64,000 bases of DNA, from NCBI GenBank assembly GCA_001897355.1, contig MKST01000002.1:263811-327810 (forward strand). The letters are read 5' to 3'. Positions 37,461 through 60,639 of the stretch are shown one piece after another. The position numbers and the translations under genes were made by a program. Numbering within the stretch: the stretch's first letter is position 1; every line of letters starts with the position of its first letter. This stretch comes from Solirubrobacterales bacterium 67-14 (GTDB taxonomy: Bacteria; Actinomycetota; Thermoleophilia; Solirubrobacterales; 70-9). The notes beneath the pieces are model-generated. The model saw only the letters and a program-made list of their open reading frames with translations, was not told the DNA's origin and did no database searches.

Positions 37461-37474
37461 CCCAGGCGAGACTG

Positions 37475-37521: not shown

Positions 37522-37527
37522 GCCCTT

Positions 37528-37869
37528 CTATCCGGCCGGGGCGCCACCGAAGCCGATCTCGTTTCCTTCCGGGTCGCGGAAGATCGCCTTGCGTACCCCG
37601 TTGCCGTAGGTCTCGACCTCATCCGGCTCGAGCCCCCGGCGGCGGATCTCCTCCAGCTTCCCCTCGAAGTCATCGAGGAAGACGGTCGCGATCGCGGAGC
37701 CGGCGCGGTCCGGGTCTTCGACCAGGTAGACGGACCGGTTCTCGGCCAGTTCCCACACGGCCTCCCTGTCGTGAGGAACGAAGCTCACCTCGCCGAGCAA
37801 CTGCTCCCACCAGGACCGCGCGGCGGCGAAATCCTTGACCGGGTTGCCGGCGAACATTGCGAGTGCCAT
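37528..37869 (-). CDS. VOC-family (glyoxalase/bleomycin-resistance fold) protein
   Basis: 113 residues forming two beta-alpha-beta-beta-beta units. It starts MALAMFAGNPVKDFAAARSWWEQLLG and ends FRDPEGNEIGFGG, both characteristic of the vicinal-oxygen-chelate superfamily. Of the usual metal ligands only the late Glu is clear (GNEIGF), so a metal-dependent reaction is not certain. Small single-gene unit between convergent and divergent neighbours. Substrate unknown. Confidence 0.8.
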   Translation of the reverse strand: MALAMFAGNPVKDFAAARSWWEQLLGEVSFVPHDREAVWELAENRSVYLVEDPDRAGSAIATVFLDDFEGKLEEIRRRGLEPDEVETYGNGVRKAIFRDPEGNEIGFGGAPAG

Positions 37870-38049
37870 GACCTCACCGTACCGGGGTCAGCGGATCACT
37901 CCCACCCGAAGGTTTCTCGCGCTGGGGCCGCCGTTCCAGAGCCTGTGTAACCCCCGGCGATGCGTGGTAAGAATTGATGAACCCAATGTTCATGGTGGCC
38001 TGACGGGCAGGGAGGGTTATCAGCCGACGATCGGAGGAGGACCGAGACG
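37870..38049. other. Divergent promoter region
   Basis: 180 bases between the VOC gene and the secreted hydrolase gene. A GGAGGAGG ribosome site lies ten bases before ATG 38050. No specific operator recognised. Confidence 0.4.
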
Positions 38050-40680: not shown

Positions 40681-40693
40681 TCGCTAGTACCCG

Positions 40694-40714
40694 CCCTTTC
40701 GAAGGCGGAAAGGG
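40694..40714 (+). terminator. Possible hairpin after the secreted hydrolase
   Basis: CCCTTTC, loop GAAGGCG, GAAAGGG begins 13 bases after the stop codon. Seven-bp stem without a following T run, so a weak call. Confidence 0.35.
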
Positions 40715-40791
40715 AGCTTGTCGGGCGATCCTCACTGTCGGGCTGGGAGACGTCGCCGCGTCTGACTTCCGGACTGGCGCCGACCTATCCC

Positions 40792-41394
40792 CTACACACG
40801 CCGGTAGCGGATGTGGGTGGCCAGCGGCGAGTGGAGCACTTCGACCGGTTCGAAATCGAAGGACTCGATTCCATCGAACAACTGCTCGCCGGACCCGAGC
40901 AGGACGGGTGCCACGTCGAGCGTGAGTTCGTCGATCACTCCGGCGGCGAGCGCCTGGCGGACGGTCGAGGCGCCGCCCGCGATGTCGACGCCGTCCTCGC
41001 CAGCCGTCTCGAGCGCCTGGGCATAGGCAGCATCGAACCCCTCGGTGACGAAGTGGAAGCTCGTGCCACCCTCCATCTCGATCGGCTCGCGCGCGTGGTG
41101 GGTGAGCACGAAGACCGGCGCGTGGTAGGGCGGCTCGGACCCCCACCATCCGTCCCAGTCCTCATCCCACTCCCCCCGGATCGGCCCGAACATGTTGCGA
41201 CCCATGACGTAGGCCCCGCGCGGTCGCATCAGCCAGTCCACGGCAGTCGCATCAGCCTCGTTCGCGCGTTCATCGCCGAGGTGCCAGGCGTGGACCGCCT
41301 TGCCGCCTATTCCCAGCGGGTTCTCCCGGCTCTGGTCCGGCCCCGCAACGAAGCCGTCGAGCGAGATTGACATGTGGCAGGTCGTGTCAGGCAT
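40792..41394 (-). CDS. Dihydrofolate-reductase-like (RibD C-terminal family) protein
   Basis: 200 residues. The start HMSISLDGFVAGPDQS, the middle RGAYVMGRNMFGPIRG and DIAGGASTVRQALAAGVIDEL, and the late PVLLGSGEQLFDG are all hallmarks of the RibD_C / YyaP-YwjB group of NADPH-binding reductases. It is not the housekeeping folate enzyme or the riboflavin reductase; group members have few assigned substrates. Single gene, convergent to the secreted hydrolase upstream. Confidence 0.88.
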   Translation of the reverse strand: MPDTTCHMSISLDGFVAGPDQSRENPLGIGGKAVHAWHLGDERANEADATAVDWLMRPRGAYVMGRNMFGPIRGEWDEDWDGWWGSEPPYHAPVFVLTHHAREPIEMEGGTSFHFVTEGFDAAYAQALETAGEDGVDIAGGASTVRQALAAGVIDELTLDVAPVLLGSGEQLFDGIESFDFEPVEVLHSPLATHIRYRRV

Positions 41395-41539
41395 CGGGAT
41401 CCTCCAAATGGTTGCGGTTCGCAGGCACCAAACCTATCCCCTGCCCGAGAAGTTCCTGACCATAACCTGCGCCGCCGCGAGGCTGAGGTCGAGGGCGCCG
41501 GGTGTCGGCAACTTCAACCCGCGGCTTTCGTGCCCGGCT

Positions 41540-44124
<2,585 letters not shown>

Positions 44125-45504
44125 TTGGAAATGGACCCGACAAATCAACTCCCCAGCGGATCGCTGCTCGTCTACGAGACGAAGGGCGGCAAACCGAAGT
44201 ACCGCGCGAAGTGGCGCGACCGCACCGGCAAACAATGCGCCCCGACGATCGGCCCGGCCTGGCTGGTCAAGGACGGCGAGGAGTGGGTGCCTCGGCCGGG
44301 CCGGGTGAGGTCCGGCTTCTACGACGAGCAGCGCGCCTACTTGCGCATGGCCGAGCTGATCGCGGAGCGCGACGCGGCGCTGCTCTCGCCACCGCCCGCG
44401 GCGGTCACCTTTGAGGAGCTGGCCGATACTTGGATGGAGCACCTCTCTCGAGGCGAGCGGGCCAAGCCCTCGACGCTGCTCGATTACAAGATCATGCTCG
44501 CCAAGCCACGGCCTCTGGCTCGCGGCAACGGGGAGACCAAGGCGAGGATCATGCGAGCGTTCGGCTCACGCGATGCCGCCTCGATCACGACCGACGATGT
44601 GGCTGCTTTCCTCGATCGCCTGGTCGTCGAGGGACTTTCACCAAGGAATGTGAACCGCTACCGGCAGGTTCTCCATGCGGCGTTCGCGTTCGGCATGAAG
44701 CCGGGCAGCTTCGGCCTGCCAAGGAACCCGGTCACCGGCACCGAACGTCAGGGGGAGGGCGGAGCGAAGGCGATCGACCCGTTCACGACCGAGGACTTGC
44801 AAGCGATCGAGCGGGTCGCCCGCGCCGGAGGCCACCGCGAGAGGCCGGAAGGCTTCTACGGCCCACAGGTCTTCGCCGAGTGGGGGCGCATCAACGAGCA
44901 GGACGCAGCGATATTCATGCTCGCCGCCTACACCGGACTCCGGCAAGGTGAGCTACGGGCGCTTCGCTGGCGTCACGTTTTCATCGACGCCCAGCGCATC
45001 TCGGTCGAAGAGGCAATCTCGGCCGGCGAGGTCTGCTCCACCAAGAGCCGCCGGGTCCGCTCGGTGCCGCTGACCGAAGCGGCCTGCGAGCTGCTGCTCA
45101 GGGTCGCTGACCGGGGCAAGTGGCTCGACCCGTTCGATCTGGTGTTCTCCTCCTCCGACGGAGGGGTGCTGAACGAGTCCGCCCTTCGCCGCCGCTTCAA
45201 GCGAGCCCAGAAAGAGGCCGGTGTGCGCGTCCGTCGCTTCCACGACCTGCGCCACACCTTCGGCTCGATCGCCGTACGAAAGTTCGACCCTGTAACGGTC
45301 CAAGCCCTGATGGGACATTCCAGCCTAAGCACCACCGAGCGCTACATGCACAGCCGCCCCCGTCCCGACGACGCCGCCCGGCTAGCAGCGGCATTCGCTT
45401 CAGACTCGGAGATCCAACCCGGGCTGACCCGCACCAAAGCCCGACCCAAGCGCAACTCCGAACCAGGCTCCAGGTTCAGGCTTACCGCAAAGATCAAGCG
45501 CTGA
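44125..45504 (+). CDS. Tyrosine-family site-specific integrase
   Basis: 459 residues (453 if ATG 44131 is used instead of TTG 44125; GGAAGGA could serve either). The N-terminal part is an arm-binding and AP2-like domain, followed by a SAM-like core-binding domain (TFEELADTWMEHLSRGE...). Catalytic residues are visible: Arg in YTGLRQGELRALRW (about 272), HDLRH (about 373), GHSSLSTTERY with His and the nucleophile Tyr (about 407). It is encoded immediately inside attL and should catalyse integration into and excision from tRNA-Ala. Confidence 0.95.
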   Translation: MEMDPTNQLPSGSLLVYETKGGKPKYRAKWRDRTGKQCAPTIGPAWLVKDGEEWVPRPGRVRSGFYDEQRAYLRMAELIAERDAALLSPPPAAVTFEELADTWMEHLSRGERAKPSTLLDYKIMLAKPRPLARGNGETKARIMRAFGSRDAASITTDDVAAFLDRLVVEGLSPRNVNRYRQVLHAAFAFGMKPGSFGLPRNPVTGTERQGEGGAKAIDPFTTEDLQAIERVARAGGHRERPEGFYGPQVFAEWGRINEQDAAIFMLAAYTGLRQGELRALRWRHVFIDAQRISVEEAISAGEVCSTKSRRVRSVPLTEAACELLLRVADRGKWLDPFDLVFSSSDGGVLNESALRRRFKRAQKEAGVRVRRFHDLRHTFGSIAVRKFDPVTVQALMGHSSLSTTERYMHSRPRPDDAARLAAAFASDSEIQPGLTRTKARPKRNSEPGSRFRLTAKIKR

Positions 45505-45825: not shown

Positions 45826-48762
45826 TCAGCGAACAACCACCTTGGCTTTCGCCTTCTTCGCTGAGAGCTTGTTGCCGGAAGCGGTCAACTTGAGGACGGC
45901 CTTGCCCTTCTTGCGCTTCGCCTTGACCTTGATCTTCACCACACGGGTCTTCCCCGAGGCGAGCTTGCCGACCTTCACGCACTTCTTGACCTTGACCAAC
46001 CGCTTCGGCGCCTTGACGCACACCTTGACGCCAGTCGCGGCCTTGCCACCCGTGTTGACCACCGCCACAGCGAGGGTGCCCTTCTTGCCGCGCTTCACCG
46101 CGATCTTCTTCGTGGTCGAGATCAGAGCAAGACGGGCCTTGCTGGTGCCGGTGGTGCACTTGCCGGGGTTGTTTCCGCACCAGTCGTACTGATCACAGCC
46201 CTTCGCGGTCGGATTCGCCTTGCAGTAGTCCACACAACCCGGACCGGTCGGATCAAGATCACACGTCTCGATCGGCTTGTCATCGGCGTTGGTCGTGGTG
46301 AACGTCTTGTCATCGCCATACCTGACGAGACCAAGCGCGTTCTTCGCGACCGCCCTGTAGTGGTAGGTCGTGTTCTTCTCGAGCCCGTCGATCGCCGCGG
46401 AAGCAGCGTCACCAGTGCTCGACGCGTCGAACGATTCCGGATCAGTGCTCGACCCATACTCGTCCGTAGTGCCGTACTCGAACCACACCTGACTGTCGCG
46501 ATTGTTCGTCGTGAGCCCGGCGTTCAACACCGCCGACTCATTGCCAACCCCGGCGGCCTTGCCGGTCTTGACCTGGTTGATCAGGGACTTGCCCGGAACG
46601 ATGTAAACCGAGCCGGCCTCTGTCAGACCATTTGGGCTGGCCAGACCGGCACCGACAGCGAAGTCGGTCAGACCGTCCGCGTCGAAATCTCCTATCGGGC
46701 TGACGGTTTGGTAGGTGTGCTGACCATTGTTCAGGTCTTGGCCTAGCAGGGCTACCCCGGCCTTAGGGGTAAGTCCGGGGCCAAGTTGAATCGGTGCCTC
46801 CGGATGCTCGTGTTGACCGAACACGACGTATGCGCCGCCCCGATTGGCAACCCCGTCTACCGGTGTCTTCGGGGCAGTGGTGACCAGGTCAGGTGTTCCA
46901 TCGTTGTTGAAGTCACCGATGTTCCGAAGGTTGACCCCCAAGAAACCTGGAAAACTGCCAGCGTCGACCAGGTAGCCGGCTCCTGGAACCAGATCGTCGC
47001 CACCTACCAATGGATCTGAGGTCGGCTGTTCAGGGCCATAGAGAACCGAGATGGCGTCCCGCTCTTGGAAATCTCCGACTGACGCGAAAGCCAACTCCGG
47101 ACGACCGTCACCATTCAAGTCACCAAGGTTTTCGGCGTTAGTCTCGCCAATCGGGGCGGCCACGAAGCGGATCCCGTCGGCTGAACTGAATGTCGAGGCA
47201 TCGAGGACGCCACCGAAAGAACGGCCATAGACGATATACCCGCCGCCGTCCACGAAGGTGACGCCCACGAACAGATCATCTTTGCCATCGTCGTTGACAT
47301 CACCGATGCCACGAAGGCCGTGACCGAACTGGCTGCCGTTCATTGCGCCGTTGATGCGAAAAGCCTGGTCTGCGGCGAGACTAGTCACATCTGACGTGCC
47401 GGTACGCTCGCCGCCTCTCACGATCAACACGGTCCCCTTGTTGGCGCCTCCAAAGGGGTCCCCCATTGCAATGTCATCGATTCCGTCGCCGTCGAAGTCG
47501 GCTATCCCGAGCTCGCCGCTGCTCGTCAGTTGCTGATCGGACGGTACCGTGAGCGCGTAGCCCTGGTCATCGCTGATCGAATTCAACTCAAGGCAGCGAA
47601 CTGCGGCTGCGTCCGGACATGGCGACAGATCGGTTGGATCGACCCCTCCGTAGACCACGAAGATCTCGTAGTCATACGTGGAGCTATCCATTCCGGCGGC
47701 GACGACGATGTCACGAATGCCATCGCCGTTTTGGTCCCCGATGCTGCGATATCCGCGAACACCGTCCCACGCCGACCCACGCGACTCGATTCGAAAACCA
47801 TTCTTCGGGCCAAGTGAGGTCAAGTCCTTTTCACCGAGGCCGGTGCGGCTGCCGAATACGACATAGACGCCTGGGTTGCTAGAAAACTGAGCGTTTCCTA
47901 CCGCGACATCGTCGATCCCATCGCCGTTCACGTCGCCGAGTTCGATGACACCTTCCCGGGAAGCGCCCGAGCCAGTATTGCCACCGACGCTCTCGAAAGG
48001 CTCGGTGCCATTGAGCCTGGTAACGGCCTGCTCGCCAACTCGAACCGACGGCTCCGGGTTCGGCACAGTGCCTGTCCATGTGAAGGGGGCGATTGCGGGA
48101 CCGTAGCCAAACTGGTTGCCGGCTTTGACCTCGAACGTGTGTTCCCCGTTCTCAAGGCTGTCGTAGCTAACTTGGCTATCGAAACTGCAGTCCTGCCAAA
48201 CGCCACCGTCGACTCGACACTGGTACCGGTTGACGAGATCGTTCTCATTCGGTCCGGCCTTGTAGGCAAACTTTGTCGGGAAATCACGCATCGGATCGTC
48301 CGGCTGAAGCGTCAGCACCGGGGGCTCAGACACTGTCGTGACAATGTTCTGAGTCCAGGTGTAGCTCGTGGCTGAACCCAAGGTGGCGAGGGATTGTCCT
48401 TCGCTAACGGCAACCTCGAACTTCCAGTTGCCATTGAGCTTGGGAAAACTGTGGCTGGATGGCTGTGCGTCAGTCGACTTACCGCACGATACCCAGCCGT
48501 TGAGCGGGGTGGGTGGGCTCGCCGGGTCGTAAACCCGGCACCAAAAGTAGAGTGGGCTGACTGTCGAAGTCTCTCCCTCTCCCACCGTGTACTCGAAGGT
48601 GCTAGTCACATGAGTCGTATTGGGATTGCTCGGGGTGCTTACCAGGTCCGGCGGAGCCGATGGCGCCGCGTGGGCAATTCCGGATATAGCCAGCAGCCCG
48701 GTCAGAGCCACTGTCACCGCAAGCAACCAACGCTTGAGTGTCTGTCTGGATGAAGTTTTCAT
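45826..48762 (-). CDS. Secreted FG-GAP repeat (integrin-alpha-like) protein
   Basis: 978 residues with signal peptide (LLAVTVALTGLLAISG ending AHA). Two Ig/fibronectin-like domains precede a beta-propeller built from seven FG-GAP blades, each with a calcium-binding loop of the kind DVNGDGIDDV, DFDGDGIDDI, DFNNDGTPDL. Then comes a fibronectin-III-like domain (NTTYHYRAVAKNALG), a Cys-rich linker (CDLDPTGPGCVDYC) and a lysine-rich C-terminal beta domain (VKVCVKAPKRLVKVKKCVKVG). The last module is shared with the next gene. Probably adhesion or extracellular recognition; calcium dependence is inferred from the loops. Cargo of the island; anchoring not evident. Confidence 0.85.
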   Translation of the reverse strand: MKTSSRQTLKRWLLAVTVALTGLLAISGIAHAAPSAPPDLVSTPSNPNTTHVTSTFEYTVGEGETSTVSPLYFWCRVYDPASPPTPLNGWVSCGKSTDAQPSSHSFPKLNGNWKFEVAVSEGQSLATLGSATSYTWTQNIVTTVSEPPVLTLQPDDPMRDFPTKFAYKAGPNENDLVNRYQCRVDGGVWQDCSFDSQVSYDSLENGEHTFEVKAGNQFGYGPAIAPFTWTGTVPNPEPSVRVGEQAVTRLNGTEPFESVGGNTGSGASREGVIELGDVNGDGIDDVAVGNAQFSSNPGVYVVFGSRTGLGEKDLTSLGPKNGFRIESRGSAWDGVRGYRSIGDQNGDGIRDIVVAAGMDSSTYDYEIFVVYGGVDPTDLSPCPDAAAVRCLELNSISDDQGYALTVPSDQQLTSSGELGIADFDGDGIDDIAMGDPFGGANKGTVLIVRGGERTGTSDVTSLAADQAFRINGAMNGSQFGHGLRGIGDVNDDGKDDLFVGVTFVDGGGYIVYGRSFGGVLDASTFSSADGIRFVAAPIGETNAENLGDLNGDGRPELAFASVGDFQERDAISVLYGPEQPTSDPLVGGDDLVPGAGYLVDAGSFPGFLGVNLRNIGDFNNDGTPDLVTTAPKTPVDGVANRGGAYVVFGQHEHPEAPIQLGPGLTPKAGVALLGQDLNNGQHTYQTVSPIGDFDADGLTDFAVGAGLASPNGLTEAGSVYIVPGKSLINQVKTGKAAGVGNESAVLNAGLTTNNRDSQVWFEYGTTDEYGSSTDPESFDASSTGDAASAAIDGLEKNTTYHYRAVAKNALGLVRYGDDKTFTTTNADDKPIETCDLDPTGPGCVDYCKANPTAKGCDQYDWCGNNPGKCTTGTSKARLALISTTKKIAVKRGKKGTLAVAVVNTGGKAATGVKVCVKAPKRLVKVKKCVKVGKLASGKTRVVKIKVKAKRKKGKAVLKLTASGNKLSAKKAKAKVVVR

Positions 48763-48851: not shown

Positions 48852-50258
48852 CTACTTGACCCGGACTACCGCCCGGCCGTTCTTCTTGCCAGCGTTCTTG
48901 GACGTCGCCTTGAACTTCAGGACGGCCTTGCCGCGCTTGCGCTTGGCCTTGACCTTGAACTTCGCCGTCTTCGCCTTACCCGCAGCGACCTGGCCGAGGT
49001 TCACGCACTTCTTGACCTTGACCAGCTTCTTCGGGGCGTTCACGCACACCTTCACCCCGGTCGCCTTGGCCTTGCCGACGTTCTTGACCTTGATCTTGAT
49101 CACGGCCTTCTTGCCGCGCTTTACCGCCTTCTTCTTCGGCTGGATCTTCAGGTTGCCGAGCTTGGCCTTGCCATTCGGCGGTCTTATGCAGTTAGGCGGG
49201 GTGCCGGTCGTGCCCTCCGGGCAGACCTTTGCCTCGGTGACAGTCCAATTGAACGGGGTTTCCGGGCCCGTGCCGGTCTGGTTCTTCGCCCTGACCGTAA
49301 ACGTGTGAGAACCAACCGCGAGATCACTGTAGGACTGCGTACCTGAGTCACAGGCCGCGAACGCGCCCGTGTCGAGCTTGCACTCGAATCCCGTGACCGG
49401 GCTGGTCTCACCCTCACCGGCCTCGAACTTGAACTCGGCGGTGGTCTGCTCGGTCGACGTGGCCGGGGTACCGGTCAGCTTCGGGGCCTTCTCCGGGGCC
49501 GGGATAACGATCTCGCCACCGGCCTTGCCCGAGAACCAGATCGCGCCGGGGCCGCCCAGAAGGTCGTCGAGCTTCGGGCAGACGATGCTGGCCAGCGAAC
49601 CGCTTTCGACAACAGCAGACGGCAAGCTCGTCCAAGGAGCGATCGTCGCGCCCTTGCCGCTCGGAGGCGCAAACGGAGCCGCGTCATAGATAGCTGCCTC
49701 GCGTGGCGGATCGGCGGCCGCGTCACCCGGATCTGAGATCGAACCCGTCGTAGCCAAAGTGAGACTGAACCCGCTGATCCGGCACTTCGCGACCGAAGCC
49801 GGCGAACCGTGGTTGTAGACCGTGATCAATACATTGGCCGGCAACACGATCGACCCATCGCCCGTGTCAGCGTCGAAGCTTCCGGTCAACGGGCCATCAG
49901 CCTTGATATCGATCGTCGCGTCAACCACCGGAAGTGCGCCCTCGCCGGTCTCGAATCCTTCGAGCCGCTTCGGTGGAAACAGGAAATCCTCCTTCGCCGC
50001 GGTCAACGCTCCATCAGCCGCTACCTCGGTGTTGATCGTGACCGCCGGATCACCAACAGTCGGATCGGGAAGCTTTGCCCAGGTGCCAGACGGGCCGCCC
50101 AGATTGATCACGCCGCTATCGAAAGTGAAACCAACCTTCTCGGCTTTGGCGGGACCCGCGCCGAGCGCCAGGATGCCGATCAAAGCCAGGGCCGCTATCG
50201 CGGCCAGAAAACCTATGGGGCTACTTAGATGCCCCCCCCCCCGACAATTCGGGGTCAC
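48852..50258 (-). CDS. Secreted protein with shared basic C-terminal module; start affected by poly-G tract
   Basis: 468 residues as assembled, from GTG 50258. A signal segment (LAAIAALALIGILALGAG) starts after the tract, then a beta-rich domain, an Ig-like domain (EFKFEAGEGETSP), and a basic module ending KVKAKRKRGKAVLKF, homologous to that of the FG-GAP protein 90 bp downstream. The GTG has no ribosome site. A better start, ATG 50283 with AAGGAG, lies 25 bases upstream but is out of frame and hits TAG at 50221 because of the 11-G run; ten Gs would fuse it to this frame. Phase variation or an assembly error; see findings. Confidence 0.75.
   Translation of the reverse strand: MTPNCRGGGHLSSPIGFLAAIAALALIGILALGAGPAKAEKVGFTFDSGVINLGGPSGTWAKLPDPTVGDPAVTINTEVAADGALTAAKEDFLFPPKRLEGFETGEGALPVVDATIDIKADGPLTGSFDADTGDGSIVLPANVLITVYNHGSPASVAKCRISGFSLTLATTGSISDPGDAAADPPREAAIYDAAPFAPPSGKGATIAPWTSLPSAVVESGSLASIVCPKLDDLLGGPGAIWFSGKAGGEIVIPAPEKAPKLTGTPATSTEQTTAEFKFEAGEGETSPVTGFECKLDTGAFAACDSGTQSYSDLAVGSHTFTVRAKNQTGTGPETPFNWTVTEAKVCPEGTTGTPPNCIRPPNGKAKLGNLKIQPKKKAVKRGKKAVIKIKVKNVGKAKATGVKVCVNAPKKLVKVKKCVNLGQVAAGKAKTAKFKVKAKRKRGKAVLKFKATSKNAGKKNGRAVVRVK
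50232..50242 (-). repeat. 11-nt homopolymer (poly-G on coding strand)
   Basis: Eleven consecutive C on the plus strand within the first codons of the secreted-protein gene, between its ribosome-site-bearing ATG and its signal peptide. Homopolymers of this length are slippage-prone. Confidence 0.9.
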
Positions 50259-50283: not shown

Positions 50284-50748
50284 GTCTGTCTCTCCTTCTT
50301 GGAGCCACCCGTCTGGGCGGCCGTCATTGCTGGAGCGAAACGACTCGACAGAAGCGCAGACCGGACGGGCCGACATCAGTCGGCGACTAGCCCTCGGTCC
50401 AAAATCCGGTGCTTTCATAGCCCCTTGCTCTCCTCGTCGAAATCACATTTCCGCCCAGATCCCCGGCGGGCTCTCCCCGGACAAGCCATCCCAAATACGT
50501 CTTGGAATGCCGCTCCCTGAAGAAACCCTCCCTTCAGATCCATTCGATACAACTTGTATCAGATTCGACTGTACATGTACAGGCGTATTCCTGTCAAGGG
50601 CAATCGAGGAGGCCATCAAGCGGCTTGGTTGCGCGAATTGCCGCGAGGGAGACCCGCGGCTCCATCGACGCCAAAGCCGCTCGTCGAATCTAAGTCAAGC
50701 GTTGAACCGGATTTCGCTCACACTCAAGTGATGTACTACAGTTACATC
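50284..50748. other. 465-bp intergenic region with several palindromes
   Basis: Divergent promoter region for the secreted protein and the RHH antitoxin. Palindromes seen: GATACAACTTGTATC (50546-50560), CTGTACATGTACAG (50569-50582, perfect) and GATGTA-N7-TACATC (50730-50748) ending at the antitoxin start. The last is suited to autoregulation by the RHH protein. ORFs crossing this region have no supporting features. Confidence 0.55.
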
Positions 50749-51000
50749 ATGTCGCTGACCCGCACCCAGATCTCACTTAGCGATGAAGACCGCAAAGTGC
50801 TCGAGGCTATGCGTCGGCGGACCGGCCAGTCGATGAGCGCGCTGATCCGTGACGCGATCCATTCGACCTATGGATCGGCGGGCTCAGTCGAAAGCGTCCG
50901 GGCAGCGCTCGATTCAACCTTCGGAGTCGTCTCCAGTGACCGCTCCGGCGAGGAGCTGGTCGACTCGATCCGGTCGGGACGACGGCTGACCGAGGCGTGA
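50749..51000 (+). CDS. Ribbon-helix-helix antitoxin (VapB-like)
   Basis: 83 residues from ATG 50749 (an earlier ATG at 50731 would add six). The N-terminal strand RTQISLSDEDRKVLEAMRRRTGQSMSALIRDAIHSTYG is a CopG/RHH DNA-binding fold; the C-terminal 35 residues (SSDRSGEELVDSIRSGRRL) would wrap the toxin. It overlaps the PIN toxin by four bases (GTGA). An inverted repeat directly at the start supports autorepression. Confidence 0.88.
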   Translation: MSLTRTQISLSDEDRKVLEAMRRRTGQSMSALIRDAIHSTYGSAGSVESVRAALDSTFGVVSSDRSGEELVDSIRSGRRLTEA

Positions 51001-51374
51001 GCACCTTCATCGACACCTCGATCCTGATCGACCACACCCGCGGTCTCCAGGCAGCACATGAGGCTTTGACCCGCGCCGTCGAGCAGGGGGAGCTTCACTC
51101 CAGCGAGATCGTCCGCACAGAACTGCTCGTGCTGATCCGAGACCAGGAACTGGAAGCGATCGCCCCACTGCTGGGAGCGATCATCTGGCACCCCGTCGAC
51201 CGGCAGATCTCCGAGGCCGCCGGCTCGCTCGGCCGCACCTGGCTGCCCTCCCACAACGGCATCGACGCCGCCGACTTCATCATCGCCGCAACAGCAACAC
51301 TGCTCAACGCGGAACTGCTGACCAAGAACGTCAAACACTTCCCGATGTTCGAGAACCTGACCGCGCCGTACTAG
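50997..51374 (+). CDS. VapC-family PIN-domain toxin
   Basis: 125 residues. PIN-domain acidic residues: Asp in MSTFIDTSILID, Glu in SSEIVRTELLVL, Asp in GIDAADFIIAATA and a C-terminal LLTKNVKHFPMF. Members are Mg-dependent endoribonucleases that cut tRNA or rRNA. GTG start overlaps the antitoxin stop. Likely stabilises the island or acts as a stress or phage-triggered toxin; the latter is speculation. Confidence 0.9.
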   Translation: MSTFIDTSILIDHTRGLQAAHEALTRAVEQGELHSSEIVRTELLVLIRDQELEAIAPLLGAIIWHPVDRQISEAAGSLGRTWLPSHNGIDAADFIIAATATLLNAELLTKNVKHFPMFENLTAPY

Positions 51375-51658: not shown

Positions 51659-52021
51659 ATGGCGCTGACACAGATACGTCACGATACCAGCACTTTCACT
51701 GGCAGACTGAACGCCGCGTGCGAGGGCGCGGATCTCGGGCCGACCGAGCTTTCACGGATCATGCCAGCCAGCGAACGTACCCTGCGGCGCTGGCTGGACG
51801 GCGAAAGCCTCCCCCGCCAGCGCGACCGCGAACGCGCTCTTGAAGTCGTGGTCGTGCTCGAGGAACTGGCCCGAGTGTTCAAGCCGGAGGGAGCCGCGAA
51901 TTGGCTCTTTGCCCCGAACCAGGCATTCGACTTCACCAAGCCCGCCGATCTCCTCACCGAGGGCGAGTACCGCAAGGTGATCGCAGCGATAGAAGCGATC
52001 GGCGAAGGCGTCTTCGTGTAG
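51659..52021 (+). CDS. Xre/MbcA-type antitoxin of a RES-Xre pair
   Basis: 120 residues. A helix-turn-helix region (GPTELSRIMPASERTLRRWLDGESLP) is followed by the Xre/MbcA/ParS toxin-binding domain, ending PNQAFDFTKPADLLTEGEYRKVIAAIEAIGEGVF, as in antitoxins of RES toxins. Six bases separate it from the RES gene. It should neutralise the toxin and repress the operon. Confidence 0.9.
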   Translation: MALTQIRHDTSTFTGRLNAACEGADLGPTELSRIMPASERTLRRWLDGESLPRQRDRERALEVVVVLEELARVFKPEGAANWLFAPNQAFDFTKPADLLTEGEYRKVIAAIEAIGEGVFV

Positions 52022-52027
52022 CCGAAG

Positions 52028-52546
52028 GTGCTGGAGTACCTCGTTAAAGCCTTGGCCAAGGACGCGGCCGAGAAGTGGTCCGGCCTTGCTTACCGGCACA
52101 TATCCCCCACCTTCGATCCACTCTCAACCCGGGGTGCCGAACTGCACGGCGGACGCTGGAACAAGCCCGGCACGCCGGCGCTCTACCTCGCCCTCTCCAT
52201 GGAGACCGCGCGGGCCGAGTTCGACCGGCTGGTCGATTTGAGGGTCCAGGCCGCCTCCGACCTACATCCTCGAAACCTAGTTAGGGTGCAGCTCAACCTA
52301 GCCGAGGTCGTCGACCTTCAGGATGATTCGGTTCTCCGCGAGCTAGGAGCCAAAGACGGACGCTACGAGAACCTGTCTACGACCCTCTGCCAAGCTGCCG
52401 GAGAGATGGTGGCCGGCACCGGAGCCTCCGGACTGCTCGCACCGTCCGTGACCGGAATCGGCACCATCCTGGTCTCCTTCCCGCAGAACTTCACTGCCGA
52501 GGACGAGGCCAACCTGATCGACCAGACCGAGGTCGACTGGACATAG
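52028..52546 (+). CDS. RES-domain NAD-degrading toxin
   Basis: 172 residues. The RES core is present: Arg in GLAYRHISPTFDPLSTRGAELHGGRWN, GTPALYLALSMETARAEF with the conserved Glu, and a late Ser-containing GASGLLAPSVTG. RES toxins (MbcT-like) break down NAD+, arresting the cell. Starts with GTG just after the Xre antitoxin. All expected catalytic residues appear intact, so it is likely active when freed. Confidence 0.9.
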   Translation: MLEYLVKALAKDAAEKWSGLAYRHISPTFDPLSTRGAELHGGRWNKPGTPALYLALSMETARAEFDRLVDLRVQAASDLHPRNLVRVQLNLAEVVDLQDDSVLRELGAKDGRYENLSTTLCQAAGEMVAGTGASGLLAPSVTGIGTILVSFPQNFTAEDEANLIDQTEVDWT

Positions 52547-52855: not shown

Positions 52856-52927
52856 GCTGCATAGTCCGTGGTGGGCCGGCCACGATGACCTGCCTCGACA
52901 TCACCCAGAACGATGGACGGAGGAAGC

Positions 52928-53392
52928 ATGCCGACTGAAAATGACCACGAGCCGACCTTCGACGGCGACGAGGCCATGACCCCGGGCGAGTCGTTGGAGT
53001 TCGCGGTGGCCGAGATCAAGGAGCTGCTGTACGTGGCAGAGAGCGCCTGGAGCGGGATCGTGATCGCGGCAGCGGAAATCCTGGCCGAGGAGCAGGGCAT
53101 CGACCCAGACCGCACCTTCTGGGCCACGTCACCGCTTTCCCTCAGTCCGCAAGGTCTGGCCTGGGTCGACGAGGAAGCAGAAATCGCCGACCTAAAACCG
53201 CCGCCCGACCCTAGCCAGGGGTGGAAGCTCGACCCGAAACACCACAACCGGATCCGCTACTGGTGGGGAGACAAGTGGGATCCACTGGTCCTCGGTAACC
53301 CCGAGAACATCTTCGCCTACAAGAAGATCGCGGCCGGCATCGAGACAGACCCGCCGAATCCGCCGCAGATCAAGCCCGTGCTGTCTCCCTGA
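52928..53392 (+). CDS. Hypothetical protein, about 154 residues
   Basis: Not recognised. Starts at an ATG preceded by GGAGGA (the ORF-track start five codons earlier lacks a site). The acidic product has one helical part (GESLEFAVAEIKELLYVAESAWSG) and an aromatic-rich C-terminal half with WKLDPKHHNRIRYWWGDKWDP, likely a small folded domain. No signal peptide. Divergent from the Xre regulator with shared operators, so probably controlled by it. Confidence 0.65.
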   Translation: MPTENDHEPTFDGDEAMTPGESLEFAVAEIKELLYVAESAWSGIVIAAAEILAEEQGIDPDRTFWATSPLSLSPQGLAWVDEEAEIADLKPPPDPSQGWKLDPKHHNRIRYWWGDKWDPLVLGNPENIFAYKKIAAGIETDPPNPPQIKPVLSP

Positions 53393-53693: not shown

Positions 53694-54581
53694 TCAGGAA
53701 GCGGAGACGATGTGTCCCCCAACGAAGATGCGTACGAGGCAGAGGCAAGCGGAGAACGCTGCATCCGCATCCTCATGAGGCACATTCTCTGGCACCGCCT
53801 CGTCGTCAGTCCCATGACGATCCGTCTGGCCTTGCCAAACAAGGTCCATCTGGGCTCGAACGTCGTCGACCGACCCGAGAGTCACGTTCCATTTCTCAGG
53901 GCGGTCCCTCATCGCGGAGATCATTTGACCGAGAGTCGCCCGATCATTGTTGGGCAAAATGACCGGCTTCGCCACCGCCTCGACTGCTCTCACCGCCTCC
54001 CGGTACGCACCCGTAGGGTCAGGTTGTCTTCCCATCAACTTCGACCAGGCTGCGGTCAGGTGATTGTGCGCCCGAGTCGCGTCGGTTGCCGTGTGTTCCA
54101 GCACGTCAGCCACCGGACCCACCGCGCGGCGCGTCAATCGATAGACCGACCCGCTGGAGGTCACTTCCCACGCGGAACCACCTTGACGAAGCTTGAGATT
54201 CAGGTCCGCGGTCCAATGTTCCGCGACAGTCCGCTCGTCCATGTGCTCACCACTCGAGAAACGCGGCCAGTGCGCGACCATCCAATCGATCACATCCAGG
54301 GCAAACTCCTGGTCGAGATTCACGCGTGCGATTAGGTCGTTCAAGCGACGCCAATCATCGCCTCCGCTAAGTGGCTCTTGGAGGCGCATCTCAAGTTGAA
54401 GATCAGTGAGGGCATCGTTTCTGATGAATGGCCCGTCATAAGGATCGTCGATCTCGAAAGACGCCTTAATCCAGTTGACGACGGGATCCCGAAGCCATGG
54501 GGGCAGACCTTCGTGAGGTTCGTCAAAACGAGGATCGGTCTCCCCCTGAAGCGATAAGGGCCGCCACGTCACGGCAGCCAT
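53694..54581 (-). CDS. HEPN/Abi-like protein behind a VapBC pair
   Basis: 295 residues, no signal peptide. The N-terminal half (PPWLRDPVVNWIKASF; ALDVIDWMVAHWPRF) is helical. The C-terminal half begins AYREAVRAVEAVAKPVILPNN and continues to LVWQGQTDRHGTDDEAV, a layout like abortive-infection C-terminal domains of the HEPN type, where an Arg/His motif cuts RNA. Here the short RHG is the only sign of such a motif, so nuclease activity is uncertain. Its gene starts 13 bases after the VapC-like toxin gene, so vapB-vapC-this gene look like one operon. Defence function is inferred. Confidence 0.6.
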   Translation of the reverse strand: MAAVTWRPLSLQGETDPRFDEPHEGLPPWLRDPVVNWIKASFEIDDPYDGPFIRNDALTDLQLEMRLQEPLSGGDDWRRLNDLIARVNLDQEFALDVIDWMVAHWPRFSSGEHMDERTVAEHWTADLNLKLRQGGSAWEVTSSGSVYRLTRRAVGPVADVLEHTATDATRAHNHLTAAWSKLMGRQPDPTGAYREAVRAVEAVAKPVILPNNDRATLGQMISAMRDRPEKWNVTLGSVDDVRAQMDLVWQGQTDRHGTDDEAVPENVPHEDADAAFSACLCLVRIFVGGHIVSAS

Positions 54582-54594
54582 CGCAATCTCGGCT

Positions 54595-55017
54595 TCATCG
54601 GATCAGCTGAACCTCGACCGCGACATCCGCGTCCGCCCAAACACGATCGGTCGTGAGCGCTGGTACTCCAAGCCGTTCTGCCAGCACAAGGCAAGCACGA
54701 TCAGCTAACGAAAGCCCCTGCTTCACCGTCAACGGACGTAGCCGTGCTACCTCGACACAATCCGCATCGGTCATGGGTTCGATGCTCAACGATCGTCCGA
54801 GAAGTCCCCGTTCGCGGTAGTCGGCTTCCAAGGCCACGGGGTCTCCGCCATCCATAGCCACCTTTGACAGCACCTCGGCCCAATTGACCACGCTGATGGT
54901 CGCGCGTCCAACCAGGGCGGAGGCGACTACTTCTTGACCGTCTTCACCATGTAGAAACGCGATCAGCGCCGAAGCATCCAGAACAGCCGTAGCCGTCCCG
55001 TCATCACTACTTGCCAC
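54595..55017 (-). CDS. VapC-family PIN-domain toxin (second)
   Basis: 140 residues. Acidic residues of the PIN fold: AVLDASALIAFLHGED, NWAEVLSKVAMDGG, SLADRACLVLAERLG and LTTDRVWADAD, all four acidic positions present. It overlaps the upstream VapB-like gene by 11 bases. A second, unrelated pair to the one at 50.7-51.4 kb. Confidence 0.9.
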   Translation of the reverse strand: MASSDDGTATAVLDASALIAFLHGEDGQEVVASALVGRATISVVNWAEVLSKVAMDGGDPVALEADYRERGLLGRSLSIEPMTDADCVEVARLRPLTVKQGLSLADRACLVLAERLGVPALTTDRVWADADVAVEVQLIR

Positions 55018-55195: not shown

Positions 55196-55677
55196 AGCTT
55201 GATCTTACCGAGCAATCTCCGTCTTCCAACCGATTTCCAAACTCACGGTGCCAGACTTCCTGTCCGTTGGAGGCCCACAACCACAACTGGCTCATCGACT
55301 CGGATTCTGCTCTCCAGCGCTCCTCGGACCCCAACCAGCCACCGACCCACACAGTATCACCAGAACATACGTTCGCACGACGAGGTCGTGCCCGTATAGA
55401 GCTGACATCGTCTGAAACGCAAGCACACGCCCGAAACGCCTTGTGCAACAGGTGCAATCCACCGCAGTATGCGAATGGTCCTCGGCTAGCCAGTCGTCGA
55501 ACGAAAACCCGCGTCTTCTCTCGGATCAATGACGGAGAACCGACACTTACCCACTGGCGGCCACGTCCTACTAGTCGGGTGGCCGATGTGCCGTAACGCG
55601 ATTGATTGGGCCCCCGCCACATCCAACTACGCACCCTCAGCGTCAACCTGTCATCCGCCTCGGCTACCGTGAATCGC
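55196..55677. other. 480-bp divergent intergenic region, no supported gene
   Basis: Lies between the VapB-like gene and the PIN protein gene. Candidate ORFs on both strands (55188-55706 minus; 55267-55596 plus) have odd composition and no ribosome site, and they overlap each other. Lower GC than the chromosome flanks. Promoters for both neighbours should be here. Confidence 0.5.
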
Positions 55678-56601
55678 ATGCCCCACCCGCAGGTAGTCGA
55701 AAACACCGAGAATCAGTTCCCGCTACCTCCGAGCGGTCTCGAGTTCGGCGACCAGCTAGTCGCCGAACTGGGCACGGCGCTGCATGCGGTCCTAGACCAC
55801 TCCGGCGTCCGATTCGACGACATCAACGCTCGCACTAGCAGTGTATTCGTCGTGGGCTGGAATAAGCAGCAGTGGACCCAACTCCCTGGAGAAGCGGCGC
55901 CGTACGTCGGGCAAGCTCGCAAGGCCCTGACACGCCTCCGCGAATTCTCGGCCTGCGCCTCCCAAGATGCCCCTGACCGTCTCTCTGAGCTATCCGAGCT
56001 TGAGGATGCCTTCGAACGCCTTATCGAGCAACCGGGTGGCACCTATCCCGGTGGTGCACCCCATTCGACGATCGAGAAGATCCGCGAAAGGCTGGATCAG
56101 CAGCTCGCCGAATACCCGGCCATCGTTCGTCGCCTCCCATGCGCCCACGGTTTGGACCAGCGCCTGCTCGTTGTTGACACAAGCGCACTGCTCGATCGCC
56201 CCAATCTTCAAGACTGGACCCTTGACGATCAGGCGTGGGTCGTCGTTTTCGTGCCGCAGGTGCTCTCCGAACTCGACGAGCGCAAGCGTGATCCCCATAC
56301 GCGGGACGCCGCGCAAAAGGTGATCCGCCAGCTGGAGGAGTTCGACCGCCGCGGCGAGACCACCGTCGGCGTGCCGCTCGCCGGCAAGCTCACCGTCCGA
56401 GAAGTCGCCATTACCCCAAACATGAGCCAGACACTGCCGTGGCTGCACGCCGACACGCCCGACGACCTCATTATCGCCAGCGCGCTCGAGCTGCGCTGGG
56501 AAGACCTCACGAGCAGCATCGCCATCGCGGCCAGCGACCGCAACGTCCGAAATAAGGCGCGTCTCGCGGGCCTTGGAGTCATCCGGACCACCGAGCTGTA
56601 G
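55678..56601 (+). CDS. PIN-domain protein with long N-terminal helical region
   Basis: About 307 residues from ATG 55678; the track start adds 24. The first 180 residues are helical and unassigned. The C-terminal part is a PIN domain of the larger kind (PhoH/Nob1-like layout): LLVVDTSALLDRPNL (first Asp), VVFVPQVLSELDERKRD (Glu), TPDDLIIASALEL (Asp) and AIAASDRNVRNKARLAG (late Asp). All catalytic acids are kept, so an RNase is likely. No antitoxin gene is adjacent, so it is not a standard VapC. It sits directly upstream of the AAA/subtilase pair and may belong with it. Confidence 0.75.
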   Translation: MPHPQVVENTENQFPLPPSGLEFGDQLVAELGTALHAVLDHSGVRFDDINARTSSVFVVGWNKQQWTQLPGEAAPYVGQARKALTRLREFSACASQDAPDRLSELSELEDAFERLIEQPGGTYPGGAPHSTIEKIRERLDQQLAEYPAIVRRLPCAHGLDQRLLVVDTSALLDRPNLQDWTLDDQAWVVVFVPQVLSELDERKRDPHTRDAAQKVIRQLEEFDRRGETTVGVPLAGKLTVREVAITPNMSQTLPWLHADTPDDLIIASALELRWEDLTSSIAIAASDRNVRNKARLAGLGVIRTTEL

Positions 56602-56732
56602 CGTCCAGGGGCCGTAGTGAGCGAGCGCTCGCACGGCGTCCCGCCGAGGCCTGAGGTAACCTCGAAATGTGCTTCTCAAGCCTTCAGGCAGGATAGGTGT
56701 ATGGAAACAGTCCGCTTAGTACTGGCAGACTT

Positions 56733-56771
56733 ATTACCACGCTAATCGTTTCTGCTTATGGCGGTGGTAAT
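56733..56771. promoter_or_regulatory. Inverted repeat upstream of the AAA ATPase gene
   Basis: ATTACCAC (56733-56740) and GTGGTAAT (56764-56771) are 8-bp inverted arms 23 bases apart, ending 11 bases before the start codon. Suited to autoregulation, for instance by the HTH at the C-terminus of the ATPase itself. Confidence 0.5.
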
Positions 56772-56782
56772 CTACAGGTGCC

Positions 56783-57970
56783 ATGACCGCAGATTCTTAC
56801 CACAAGTCAGAGCAGCTAGATCCCACTGAGAAAGTGATCGTGGACCTAGTGCGACTCGGCTTGGATGGCGACGACGCATCGATTCGCCAGTTGGCTCGTA
56901 AACTCCTTCGCCAACGCAAGGGCAAGCCGGTCTCTGACACCTTCCGTGAACACCTAGGCAGCTTGCTTGTAGGGACCGACACGTCGCCAACACGCGGAGG
57001 GCAGCGTGCGGCAATGCCACTTGAGCCCGAGAGTCAGCTACCGCTCGCATCCGTGGAGGAACGACCGGTCGTCGAGGAGCCCATACTCAGTCCCAAGGCT
57101 ACTGAAGCGATCGGGCAGTTAGTGGCAGAACGTCGCGCTGCTTCGCAGCTGCAAGCCGCTGGCCTGGAACCACCCAAGACGGTACTCCTGTCCGGGCGAC
57201 CGGGGGTAGGTAAGACGATGACGGCGCGCTATCTTGCTCAAGAGTTGGAGTTGCCACTAGTCGGTGTTGAGTTGGCAACGTTGATGTCGAGTCTGCTAGG
57301 CAAGACCGGTCAAAACCTGCGGCAGCTGCTGGTCTACGCGCGGCAGGCACCGTGTGTGTTGCTGCTAGACGAGTTCGACGCCGTCGCCAAGCGTCGCGAC
57401 GACCAAAGCGATATCGGCGAGCTCAAGCGACTAGTCAACGTGCTGCTGGTGGAACTCGATCGTTGGCCCGCGAGCGGACTGCTGGTGGCAGCCACTAATC
57501 ACCCGCAGTTGCTCGATCCCGCGGTCGATCGGCGCTTTGACCTGCGCCTCGATCTCGACTTACCCGAATTGGAGGAGCGCATCGCGATCCTTGGACGGGC
57601 CGTTCGGCGTGCCGGCCAAGTCTCATCATGCGATGTGTTGGCAGCCTGTGCGTTGGCACTGAACGGTTCTAGTGGAGCCGACCTCGAACAGACGGTCGCG
57701 CACGCCGCGCGGCGTGCGGTTCTGGACGAAGTGAGCTTCGAGCGAATCCTCAGCGAGACGGTGCTGAAGCCGCTGGGAGATTGGTCCGACGCGGACACGA
57801 CTGAACGGGCGGCGTTCTGCGCGCTGGCAATTGATCAGCTCGGTCTTTCTCAACGTGAAATCGCCAAGTTGCTTGGGATCTCACATCCCACCGTCGGGAA
57901 GCTTGCGCAACGCTGGCGTACCGAGCTTAGCCCGCAGGCTGTACCCGAGCCCATGTTGGCGGCGAGCTGA
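56783..57970 (+). CDS. AAA+ ATPase with C-terminal HTH, partner of a subtilase
   Basis: 395 residues. An N-terminal helical region of about 100 residues is followed by an AAA+ core: Walker A LLSGRPGVGKTMTARYLA (about 138-150), a Walker B LLLDEFDAV, sensor 1 in VAATNHPQLLD, and an arginine-finger-like VDRRFDLRLDLDLP. The C-terminal 45 residues form a helix-turn-helix (LSQREIAKLLGISHPTVGKLAQRW) of the sigma-70 region-4 type. FtsH/Cdc48-like central features suggest remodelling of protein. It overlaps the subtilase start (TGATG), so the two are made together. Possible two-gene defence or stress system. Confidence 0.85.
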   Translation: MTADSYHKSEQLDPTEKVIVDLVRLGLDGDDASIRQLARKLLRQRKGKPVSDTFREHLGSLLVGTDTSPTRGGQRAAMPLEPESQLPLASVEERPVVEEPILSPKATEAIGQLVAERRAASQLQAAGLEPPKTVLLSGRPGVGKTMTARYLAQELELPLVGVELATLMSSLLGKTGQNLRQLLVYARQAPCVLLLDEFDAVAKRRDDQSDIGELKRLVNVLLVELDRWPASGLLVAATNHPQLLDPAVDRRFDLRLDLDLPELEERIAILGRAVRRAGQVSSCDVLAACALALNGSSGADLEQTVAHAARRAVLDEVSFERILSETVLKPLGDWSDADTTERAAFCALAIDQLGLSQREIAKLLGISHPTVGKLAQRWRTELSPQAVPEPMLAAS

Positions 57971-60342
57971 TGGCCTCCGACGATCGCGCCCGTAACCCAG
58001 TCGAGACGCAGCGTCCGTTGCTGGCGGGAGGAGAGCGACTGCGCGGCGAGGTCGAACGAGCAAGTGGCGGGGGTCCAAAGTGGCATCCACGTTCGCTTGA
58101 GCAGGCTCGCGAGATCCTCACCCCACAGGTCGCCGCGTTGCAGCGAGACGTCGCCGAGACCCCCAGTGGCCTGCGTGGCGCACGAGTCATCTTCGAAGCC
58201 ACGGTATTGCCCAACTACCTGGCCAACAGCTATTTCCCAGCCGAGTTGTTCCGCGCGGCAGACCTTGTGCCTGTTGGAACACGCGGCGCGGTCGCCGAGT
58301 ACAAGACCAAAAGCCGCCCGAGCGAGCCACGTCCCACCAAGACCTACCTGCTAGCCGGCGACGAACGGTCGCTAACGAAGGTGTCGGAACTGCTGCATGA
58401 GGCGGGGCCAGCACGCGGCATGAGCGCAACCGCACGCGATGCTCTTCGCCAGTTTGATGTGGTTCGGATGCCTCCCGTCGACGATGTACTGCGCAGCGAG
58501 CCCGACGCTCCCGCTGGAGCACTGGTCACATGGGAAGCCGTGCTGCATCCGGCGATCGCTGCCGGAGGCGAGCCCAGCGAGACCGAGCGCCGCTCCGTGC
58601 TGGAGAAGTGGGAAGCGTGGATCAGCCAGCTCGGTGGTGAGGTCGCTGTCGACTATGAGCGCCCGGTTAAGGGCCTCACATTCATACCCGTCCGACTGCC
58701 CGCCGATGCTGGCGAGATCGCGGCACGCTTCAACCCGTTGCGAGCGCTGCGACCCATGCCCCAGGTCCGACCGGTGCCAGTCGGGCCGTTGCGGATCGCA
58801 ACCACCGACACGCAACTGCCTACACCGCCCGCCGGTCAGCGGCCGCAGTCTGACGTGCGTATCGCTGCTTTCGACGGGGGACTCGATGACACCGTTGCTC
58901 ATGTAGGGCCGTTCGCGACGAACATCGACGTGACGCCGGAACTCCCCGACTCTCAGGCGGTTGCGCACGGAACGATGGTTACCAGCGCCTTGCTCTATGG
59001 CGCATTCGAACCGGATCAGCAGCTGCGCACTCCCGATGTCGGCGTCGACCATTTTCGTGTTCTGCCGGTACCCGCGAGCGATCAGTGGGATGTCGACCTG
59101 TACTGGATTTTGGATCGAATCGTAGAGCTGGTCAGACAGCGCGACTACCCGATCGTCAATCTCAGCCTCGGTCCGAACCTGTGTCTCGACGATGACGACG
59201 AACCGCACGCTTGGACAGCCCGACTGGATGAACTCACTGAGCAGCACGGGACGCTGTTCGTGTGTGCGGTGGGCAACAATGGCGAAAACGATGGCGACGC
59301 CGGCCTTAATCGCATCCAGGTACCCGGTGACATGGTCAATGGGATCGGGGTCGGTGCTTGCGACCGAGAGGCACCACACTCCTCGTGGAAGCGTGCCGCC
59401 TACAGCGCGATCGGTCCTGGTCGGCCGGGAGCGCGAATCCAGCCGATCGGTGTCGCGTTCGGCGGAAGCAACCACGCGCCGTATCGCGGAATCGCTCCCG
59501 GTGGCACAATCGGCGAAGCCCAGGGAACAAGCTTCGCTGCACCGACCGTCGCGCATGGGCTTGCGGCACTGACGGCGACCATCGGCCAAGACGCCGCGAC
59601 CCCCGACGTACTGCGTGCGTTCGCGATCCACTTCGCCGAGCCTGGTACTGACAACACGCTCATTGACCAGGTCGGGTTCGGTCGGCTGGCAGAGCGCTAC
59701 GATCCTCACTGGGATCTGCCGCCGCAGGACGTAACGATCCTCTACCGCGATGAGATCGAGCGCGGGCAAACGATCGCGTTGCCGTTCCCGCTGCCTGCCG
59801 ATGTCGTCTCAGGTCGGACGCTGAACCTCCGCTGGACGCTCGCCTTCGTTGCCCCAACCGATCCGACCGATCCCGTCGATTACACCCAGTCAGGATTGGA
59901 GGTCGCCTTCCGACCCCATGCGCGCCGCTATACCTTCCGCAAGACCGGGACCAACAAGTCGGTTCAACTCGACGTACAACGTGATCGCGAGAAGGTGCTC
60001 AAGCGGTTGCGCGACGGATGGGTTCCCGCGCCGCTCCCGACCACTCGCGCATCCGAGCGCCGCCGCAACGAAATACTCCAGCGCGAAGAGGGCAAGTGGG
60101 AGACTGCCTTGCACTACACCGAGCGCATGCGCTCCTCAAGCCTGTTCGATCCACAGCTCACTGTCTCCTATCTCGCACGCGAAGGCGGCACTCTTGTTGC
60201 CGCACCGCCGCTTGCATTCGCGATGCTGCTGACCATCCAAGCACCTACCGGAGTTGAGCTCTACGACGCTGTCCGGTCACGCTTCAACGTTCTAACACCG
60301 CTGACGGCGCAGATCCCGCTCAGGCTCCGCGCACAGAGCTAA
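57970..60342 (+). CDS. Subtilisin-like (S8) serine protease, intracellular
   Basis: 790 residues. About 290 N-terminal residues of unassigned sequence precede an S8 domain whose triad is visible: Asp in RIAAFDGGLDD (about 301), His in AHGTMVTSALLYG (about 332), Ser in GTSFAAPTVAHGL (about 521), plus the oxyanion Asn in AVGNNGEND. A C-terminal beta-rich domain of about 200 residues follows. There is no signal peptide, unlike most subtilases, so it should act in the cytoplasm, probably gated by the coupled AAA+ ATPase. The large N-terminal part may bind targets or act as a pro-region. Last gene of the island. Confidence 0.88.
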   Translation: MASDDRARNPVETQRPLLAGGERLRGEVERASGGGPKWHPRSLEQAREILTPQVAALQRDVAETPSGLRGARVIFEATVLPNYLANSYFPAELFRAADLVPVGTRGAVAEYKTKSRPSEPRPTKTYLLAGDERSLTKVSELLHEAGPARGMSATARDALRQFDVVRMPPVDDVLRSEPDAPAGALVTWEAVLHPAIAAGGEPSETERRSVLEKWEAWISQLGGEVAVDYERPVKGLTFIPVRLPADAGEIAARFNPLRALRPMPQVRPVPVGPLRIATTDTQLPTPPAGQRPQSDVRIAAFDGGLDDTVAHVGPFATNIDVTPELPDSQAVAHGTMVTSALLYGAFEPDQQLRTPDVGVDHFRVLPVPASDQWDVDLYWILDRIVELVRQRDYPIVNLSLGPNLCLDDDDEPHAWTARLDELTEQHGTLFVCAVGNNGENDGDAGLNRIQVPGDMVNGIGVGACDREAPHSSWKRAAYSAIGPGRPGARIQPIGVAFGGSNHAPYRGIAPGGTIGEAQGTSFAAPTVAHGLAALTATIGQDAATPDVLRAFAIHFAEPGTDNTLIDQVGFGRLAERYDPHWDLPPQDVTILYRDEIERGQTIALPFPLPADVVSGRTLNLRWTLAFVAPTDPTDPVDYTQSGLEVAFRPHARRYTFRKTGTNKSVQLDVQRDREKVLKRLRDGWVPAPLPTTRASERRRNEILQREEGKWETALHYTERMRSSSLFDPQLTVSYLAREGGTLVAAPPLAFAMLLTIQAPTGVELYDAVRSRFNVLTPLTAQIPLRLRAQS

Positions 60343-60410
60343 GCGCAACCATGCTCGCCGGCGGCGTGTCGGTTCGGCGGACCATTCCTAAACTGACGAT
60401 CCGCCGTCGC

Positions 60411-60431
60411 GGTACATTAACTGGTACATCG
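60411..60431. repeat. GGTACAT tandem pair beside attR (probable integrase arm site)
   Basis: GGTACAT TAACT GGTACATCG, period 12. The same heptamer pair with period 11 lies inside the left end at 44032-44051, in the same orientation, which points to a protein-binding site used in recombination. Confidence 0.55.
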
Positions 60432-60482
60432 AGAGCGCCCCGCGGTGGTGGGCGTGACCCGTGAGGGTCGCGCATCCCGCTT

Positions 60483-60544
60483 GTGGGGCGGAAAGTGCTT
60501 GATGGAGCCAGCCGGGATCGAACCGGCGACCTCCTGCTTGCAAA
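60483..60544. repeat. attR: 62-bp direct repeat overlapping tRNA-Ala
   Basis: Identical to attL at 43864-43925. Covers the 3' half of the tRNA gene up to the anticodon and 20 bases beyond, so integration leaves the tRNA whole. Confidence 0.95.
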
Positions 60545-60575
60545 GCAGGCGCTCTGCCAACTGAGCTATGGCCCC
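60503..60575 (-). tRNA. tRNA-Ala (UGC anticodon)
   Basis: 73 nt on the minus strand: GGGGCCA acceptor with the alanine-specific G3-U70 pair, anticodon loop TTTGCAA giving UGC, T loop TTCGATC and discriminator A. CCA is not encoded. It is the integration target of the island. Confidence 0.97.
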
Positions 60576-60639
60576 AGAGTGGACGGTGATTGTATGGGTT
60601 GGGGGCCGGCCGGACGCGTCACACAGATAGCCTGGGCCG

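Follow-up and report, generated by a model that had tools for sequence, protein, structure and literature searches.

Introduction

The closest described counterparts of the locus reported here are two-gene modules in which an ATPase is paired with a subtilisin-like protease. In the sgiAT module of SGI1 the subtilase is the toxin and the ATPase the antitoxin, as established in Escherichia coli; the module stabilises SGI1, and sgiAT under its own promoter produced no post-segregational killing in E. coli (PMC5006074). Toxicity and its neutralisation have also been documented for a mycoplasma pair, where deletion of the ATPase gene only is lethal in a minimal mycoplasma (PMC8562856). Both papers cite ietAS of plasmid pTiC58 as the earlier case (PMC5006074, PMC8562856), and it was as a stabiliser of this plasmid that IetAS was first described (PMC5006074). 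IetAS has since become a named anti-phage system (PMC9958689, PMC11878078): resistance to phage has been associated with a copy carried by a Pf phage (PMC11878078), and PMC10732053 cites phage replication proteins as triggers. Its mechanism is called unknown in PMC11878078 and PMC9958689.

Here we describe an ATPase-protease pair from Solirubrobacterales bacterium 67-14, analysed within a 64,000-nt stretch of DNA (the window). A preliminary description of this pair could name no characterised system of the same make-up. Such systems exist: ietA/ietS of pTiC58 and sgiAT of SGI1 share the architecture (PMC5006074, PMC8562856).

Results

The pair belongs to a divergent branch of IetAS

The two genes are arranged as follows.

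56783..57970, plus strand: ietA, 395 aa, ATG start; AAA+ ATPase of the p97-D2/FtsH-like clade with a C-terminal HTH, predicted antitoxin/regulator
57970..60342, plus strand: ietS, 790 aa, ATG start; cytoplasmic S8 subtilase, predicted toxin/effector

Both are read from the plus strand and their overlap amounts to a single nucleotide (TGATG), an arrangement noted in the preliminary description that would allow translational coupling. A PADLOC search, which that description had recommended, assigns both genes to IetAS (IetA, E=7.9e-84; IetS, E=2e-36), adjacent and in the expected order, and the notion of a system without known counterpart is rejected on this match. The best matches among NCBIfam models are likewise the anti-phage models IteA (NF042959, 251.7 bits) and IteS (NF042956, 97.5 bits), at scores that do not reach the equivalog cut-offs of 510 and 900 bits, respectively, which delimit close copies of the tested protein and not the family. 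Because both proteins fall far under these cut-offs, they represent a divergent branch of the system: by PADLOC profile, not by NCBI equivalog, the pair is a member of known IetAS. With scores this low its function could have shifted from that of the characterised copies. Other features of IetAS are present, namely intact ATPase residues, an intact triad, near-overlapping genes with the ATPase first and carriage on a mobile element.

The preliminary description gave exact coordinates for the ATPase and correctly recognised an intact AAA+ core and an HTH. Pfam places the core in AAA (PF00004, E=1e-28) and the HTH, at residues 338-380, in HTH_23 (PF13384, E=5.6e-7). The Walker A residues K144/T145, the Walker B residues D196/E197, the sensor N239 and the arginine fingers R250/R251 do not vary among the 21 aligned pairs. 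Among solved structures the p97/Cdc48 D2 domain is nearest to the core by sequence, and the FtsH and proteasome ATPases are also near. The protease falls in Peptidase_S8 (PF00082, E=1.3e-23), and its triad D302/H333/S521, together with the oxyanion residue N436, shows the same invariance (21/21). No hydrophobic N-terminal segment or signal peptide was found in IetS, the best 15-residue window within the first 60 residues having a mean hydropathy of 0.31; the earlier reading of an S8 protease with an intact triad and no signal peptide thus holds.

Of the 16 related loci scanned, 15 have the ATPase gene directly 5' of the protease gene, and the distance between the two ranges from -20 to +24 nt over 21 loci. 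The proteins have diverged together (matrix correlation r=0.94, a value reached in 0 of 5000 permutations; 21 pairs). Since the pair is kept across several phyla, its association is not due to chance. The nearest relative found, the locus L009, comes from a metagenome-assembled actinomycetote, with IetS 63% identical; beyond it, actinobacterial copies stand near 39-40% and the remaining relatives at 28-33%. The distribution is sparse: of 397 genomes in the phylum, 6 contain a match at E<=1e-20, and a search of 17 congeners found no copy.

A tRNA-Ala island carries the pair at its end

The element that carries the pair comprises the following features besides ietA and ietS.

43846..43925, no strand: attL, 80-nt direct repeat with the 3' part of tRNA-Ala
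44125..45504, plus strand: tyrosine recombinase/integrase, 459 aa, directly inside attL (PF00589, E=2.3e-29)
50997..51374, plus strand: VapC-like PIN toxin (PF01850, E=1.9e-11), with an RHH antitoxin ORF ahead of it at 50554-51000 (RHH_1, E=8.8e-9)
51659-52021 and 52028-52546, plus strand: Xre/MbcA/ParS antitoxin (PF09722, E=1.4e-5) and RES-domain toxin (PF08808, E=2.6e-17)
53694-54581, minus strand: candidate defence protein PDC-S32, weak match (PADLOC, E=3.2e-8)
54595-55017, minus strand: second PIN protein (PF01850, E=1.8e-13)
55606-56601, plus strand: PIN_4 domain protein, upstream neighbour of ietA (PF13638, E=3e-12)
60465..60544, no strand: attR, direct repeat overlapping the tRNA-Ala 3' end
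60501..60576, minus strand: tRNA-Ala (TGC), integration target, intact (ARAGORN; Rfam RF00005, 72.5 bits)

The two repeats are 96% identical, with about 62 nt of unbroken identity, and are spaced 16,619 nt apart. They bound a genomic island of ~16.6 kb in the tRNA-Ala 3' end, and the pair is its final cargo, attR and the tRNA starting about 120 nt beyond the ietS stop; the preliminary description had already put the pair at the end of an island. Its mention of toxin-rich surroundings and a PIN neighbour is borne out by the RHH+PIN and Xre/MbcA+RES pairs, the second PIN protein and the PIN_4 protein. The PIN_4 gene was considered as a third component and rejected: it is not upstream of the pair in the relatives L009 and L052, and since relatives with listed upstream ORFs carry other genes 5' of the pair, it stands outside the conserved unit.

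The adjacent minus-strand genes 45826-48762 and 48852-50258 have in common a 152-nt stretch, 80% identical and 3,026 nt apart; the product of the former contains FG-GAP repeats, and both products have CARDB/DUF11-like ends. An integrase 69% identical to that of the island occurs elsewhere in the genome, about 143 kb upstream (G000:C2:164918-166264), and perhaps marks a second related island.

The DNA of the sister species G015 passes without a break from the point that matches window position ~31,847 to the tRNA at 60,503. With 31,848-60,502 missing there, more is absent than the repeats enclose, and a second accessory segment (31.85-43.85 kb) therefore probably stands in tandem with the island. 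Another sister species, G011, carries beside the repeat an 85% counterpart of a DHFR-like gene in this segment (40792-41394, within 31848-43845).

The corresponding tRNA of G011 holds a different island of ~11.9 kb, bounded by a 44-nt copy and by the tRNA (L045:3344-15294), with an integrase, a cytosine methylase and a SacI-like restriction enzyme (type II restriction-modification), Vsr and the candidate defence protein PDC-S06. Given this different, defence-rich occupant, the tRNA-Ala slot looks like an exchange site for defence-bearing islands between sister species. Small proteins annotated without function, one in each tRNA-Ala island (window 52913-53392 and L045:14475-15074), appear alike by eye.

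Relatives are carried by plasmids and temperate phages

IetAS relatives were found in 34 plasmid records, which are mobile by definition and alone cannot show mobility. Temperate-phage copies occur, for instance, in Enterobacter phage phiT5282H, between the replication-nicking and portal genes, and in Paenibacillus phages. One relative (G039, L052) has chromosomal neighbours of ordinary appearance, and no integrase is seen near it. Among the 12 plasmid neighbourhoods examined, five (L066, L071, L073, L076, L080) have a multiubiquitin/ThiF/ImmA gene set adjoining IetAS, which suggests a recurrent partnership or co-transfer.

A PADLOC search of the genes flanking IetAS on eight plasmids matched 114 families, among them a full Gabija pair (GajA, 3.7e-217; GajB, 5.5e-149) and two CBASS-type capP matches; control regions of the same plasmids matched five, all generic, without Gabija or capP, and we take these five to be mainly cross-matches with common ATPases. 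As these are tallies of families and not calls for individual genes, the contrast is small and qualitative. Taken with the PADLOC assignment, the tRNA island and the plasmid and temperate-phage copies, it supports the preliminary view of the pair as defence-associated and mobile.

A candidate operator precedes ietA

An inverted repeat lies before ietA.

56733..56771, no strand: candidate ietA operator, ATTACCAC-N23-GTGGTAAT

This is the only such site in the window and in the whole genome, and a third half-site is found just inside ietA. The nearest relative, L009, has TACCA-N25-TGGTA with equal spacing and at nearly equal distance to the ietA start codon; on visual comparison the two loci match at all ten half-site bases and at about 7 of the 25 spacer bases. 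Plausibly, the repeat at 56733-56771 is an operator for the IetA HTH. Across the family the signal is uneven: the repeat is clear here and in the nearest relative and not in most other loci, and 6 of 22 loci reach shuffle p<=0.05 for an inverted repeat, with differing sequences and some of the loci related. An operator common to all IetAS, partly supported by these six loci, is for that reason not claimed. The repeat before ietA is possibly a new feature for IetAS. A scan of 56500-60500 for sigma-70 promoters and terminators gave no matches.

The N-terminal region of IetS may resemble a propeptide

The preliminary description had left a large N-terminal region of IetS without assignment. The Pfam search agrees: for these ~290 residues no family is matched, even at E<=10, beyond chance level. 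By sequence there is no solved structure of IetS, site-1 protease being the nearest. An AlphaFold model of modest confidence (mean pLDDT 67.7, from an 11-sequence alignment) predicts that two modules precede the catalytic domain, one at residues 73-166 and the other at 185-262, each with the order strand-helix-strand-strand-helix-strand. Among the best matches of this model in a fold search of solved structures are pro-subtilases with the propeptide still in place (3afg, and likewise 3whi and PCSK9). Because the rmsd of these matches is large, the resemblance of the two tandem modules to propeptides, read from predicted secondary structure, is suggestive only; a propeptide-like N-terminus is possibly new for IetAS.

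Discussion

What could be the role of such a pair at the edge of an island? We consider it likely that this divergent IetAS module is a toxin-antitoxin-like system of abortive defence and island retention, placed as the last cargo of the tRNA-Ala island. According to this reading, IetS would be a protease of the cytoplasm that, when unrestrained, harms the cell producing it. IetA, translated ahead of it from the common message, would hold it inactive in an ATP-dependent manner, while binding of the IetA HTH to the repeat at 56733-56771 would keep the operon repressed. Phage infection, for which the published IetAS triggers suggest phage replication proteins, or loss of the island would disturb IetA, and the freed IetS would cleave cell or phage proteins, stopping the infected or island-free cell.

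The strongest competitor, to which we assign a minority but appreciable chance, is that the pair is chiefly an addiction or maintenance module of its island, acting through post-segregational killing or stabilisation, with phage protection as a side effect. The stabilisation of SGI1 by sgiAT and of pTiC58 by IetAS (PMC5006074) favours this view, as do the further toxin-antitoxin pairs on the island and the place of the pair at the island end beside attR. However, no post-segregational killing occurred in E. coli when sgiAT was driven by its own promoter (PMC5006074), the Pf-phage system is associated with phage resistance (PMC11878078), plasmid copies adjoin defence genes such as Gabija, and the tRNA-Ala slot of the sister species G011 holds restriction-modification.

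The direction of the interaction between the two proteins bears on a second alternative, a chaperone-protease machine of the FtsH or Clp type: the ATPase would sense or unfold a target and switch on or supply the protease, without acting as an antitoxin. Activation of the protease was also the inference of the preliminary description, which was probably wrong in sign, since the published ATPase is an antitoxin that neutralises the protease (PMC8562856); activation is possible and the less likely case. The nearness of the IetA core to p97/Cdc48 D2 and to the FtsH and proteasome ATPases, which unfold proteins, would suit an activator, as would the coupling allowed by the 1-nt gene overlap. Against it, the ATPase of the relatives neutralises the protease and loss of the ATPase gene alone kills (PMC8562856, PMC5006074), and IetS has predicted N-terminal domains of inhibitory type of its own. 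As IetS is the toxin and IetA the antitoxin in relatives, IetA probably restrains IetS here as well, and we regard an activating ATPase without antitoxin role as improbable. That the pair is a housekeeping cytoplasmic protease and chaperone unrelated to conflict, as the G039 copy (L052) among ordinary-looking chromosomal genes without an integrase in view might suggest, is hardly credible for genes so rare and patchy (6/397 genomes of the phylum at E<=1e-20, 0/17 congeners searched) and borne by islands, plasmids and phages.

A more specific form of the defence and retention reading can be put forward tentatively, although we doubt that it holds in full. IetA may be a three-in-one guard, using ATP to inhibit IetS, sensing phage replication proteins and repressing its own operon by way of the HTH on TACCA-N25-TGGTA, and IetS may be a zymogen with two tandem propeptide-like domains. 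If true, the combination would amount to a concrete double-lock release, which is not described in the cited IetAS papers. IetAS is widely annotated, and this divergent copy offers direct tests of how its protease is held and released. Its value lies in clean island boundaries, an operator candidate common to the nearest relative and a predicted propeptide-like N-terminus of IetS.

Comparison with known systems

The FtsH, Clp and proteasome-ATPase machines resemble the pair in coupling a related AAA+ core with proteolysis. They feed a compartmental or fused protease, whereas here the subtilase is separate and has N-terminal domains of its own; the HTH of IetA further sets it against these ATPases. 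The Mycoplasma AAA-ATPase/subtilisin pair TA132/133 has the identical two-gene order, and both toxicity and neutralisation have been shown for it (PMC8562856), but it is chromosomal and belongs to a wall-less host. The sgiAT module of Salmonella Genomic Island 1 is closer in setting, combining an ATPase antitoxin and a subtilase toxin on an integrative island (PMC5006074), and differs in the island and in the host phylum. The likeness to both of these modules is one of gene architecture and described roles.

With IetAS (ietA/ietS of pTiC58; NCBIfam IteA/IteS) the pair has in common the order of AAA+ ATPase and S8 subtilase, the near-overlap of the genes, the profile families and residence on mobile DNA. 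Compared with IetAS relatives outside this branch, its IetS is 790 aa long, against ~730-760 aa in most others, and 28-33% identical to them. The pair is not a new system; its interest lies in the island setting and in the testable hypotheses of an operator and a propeptide.
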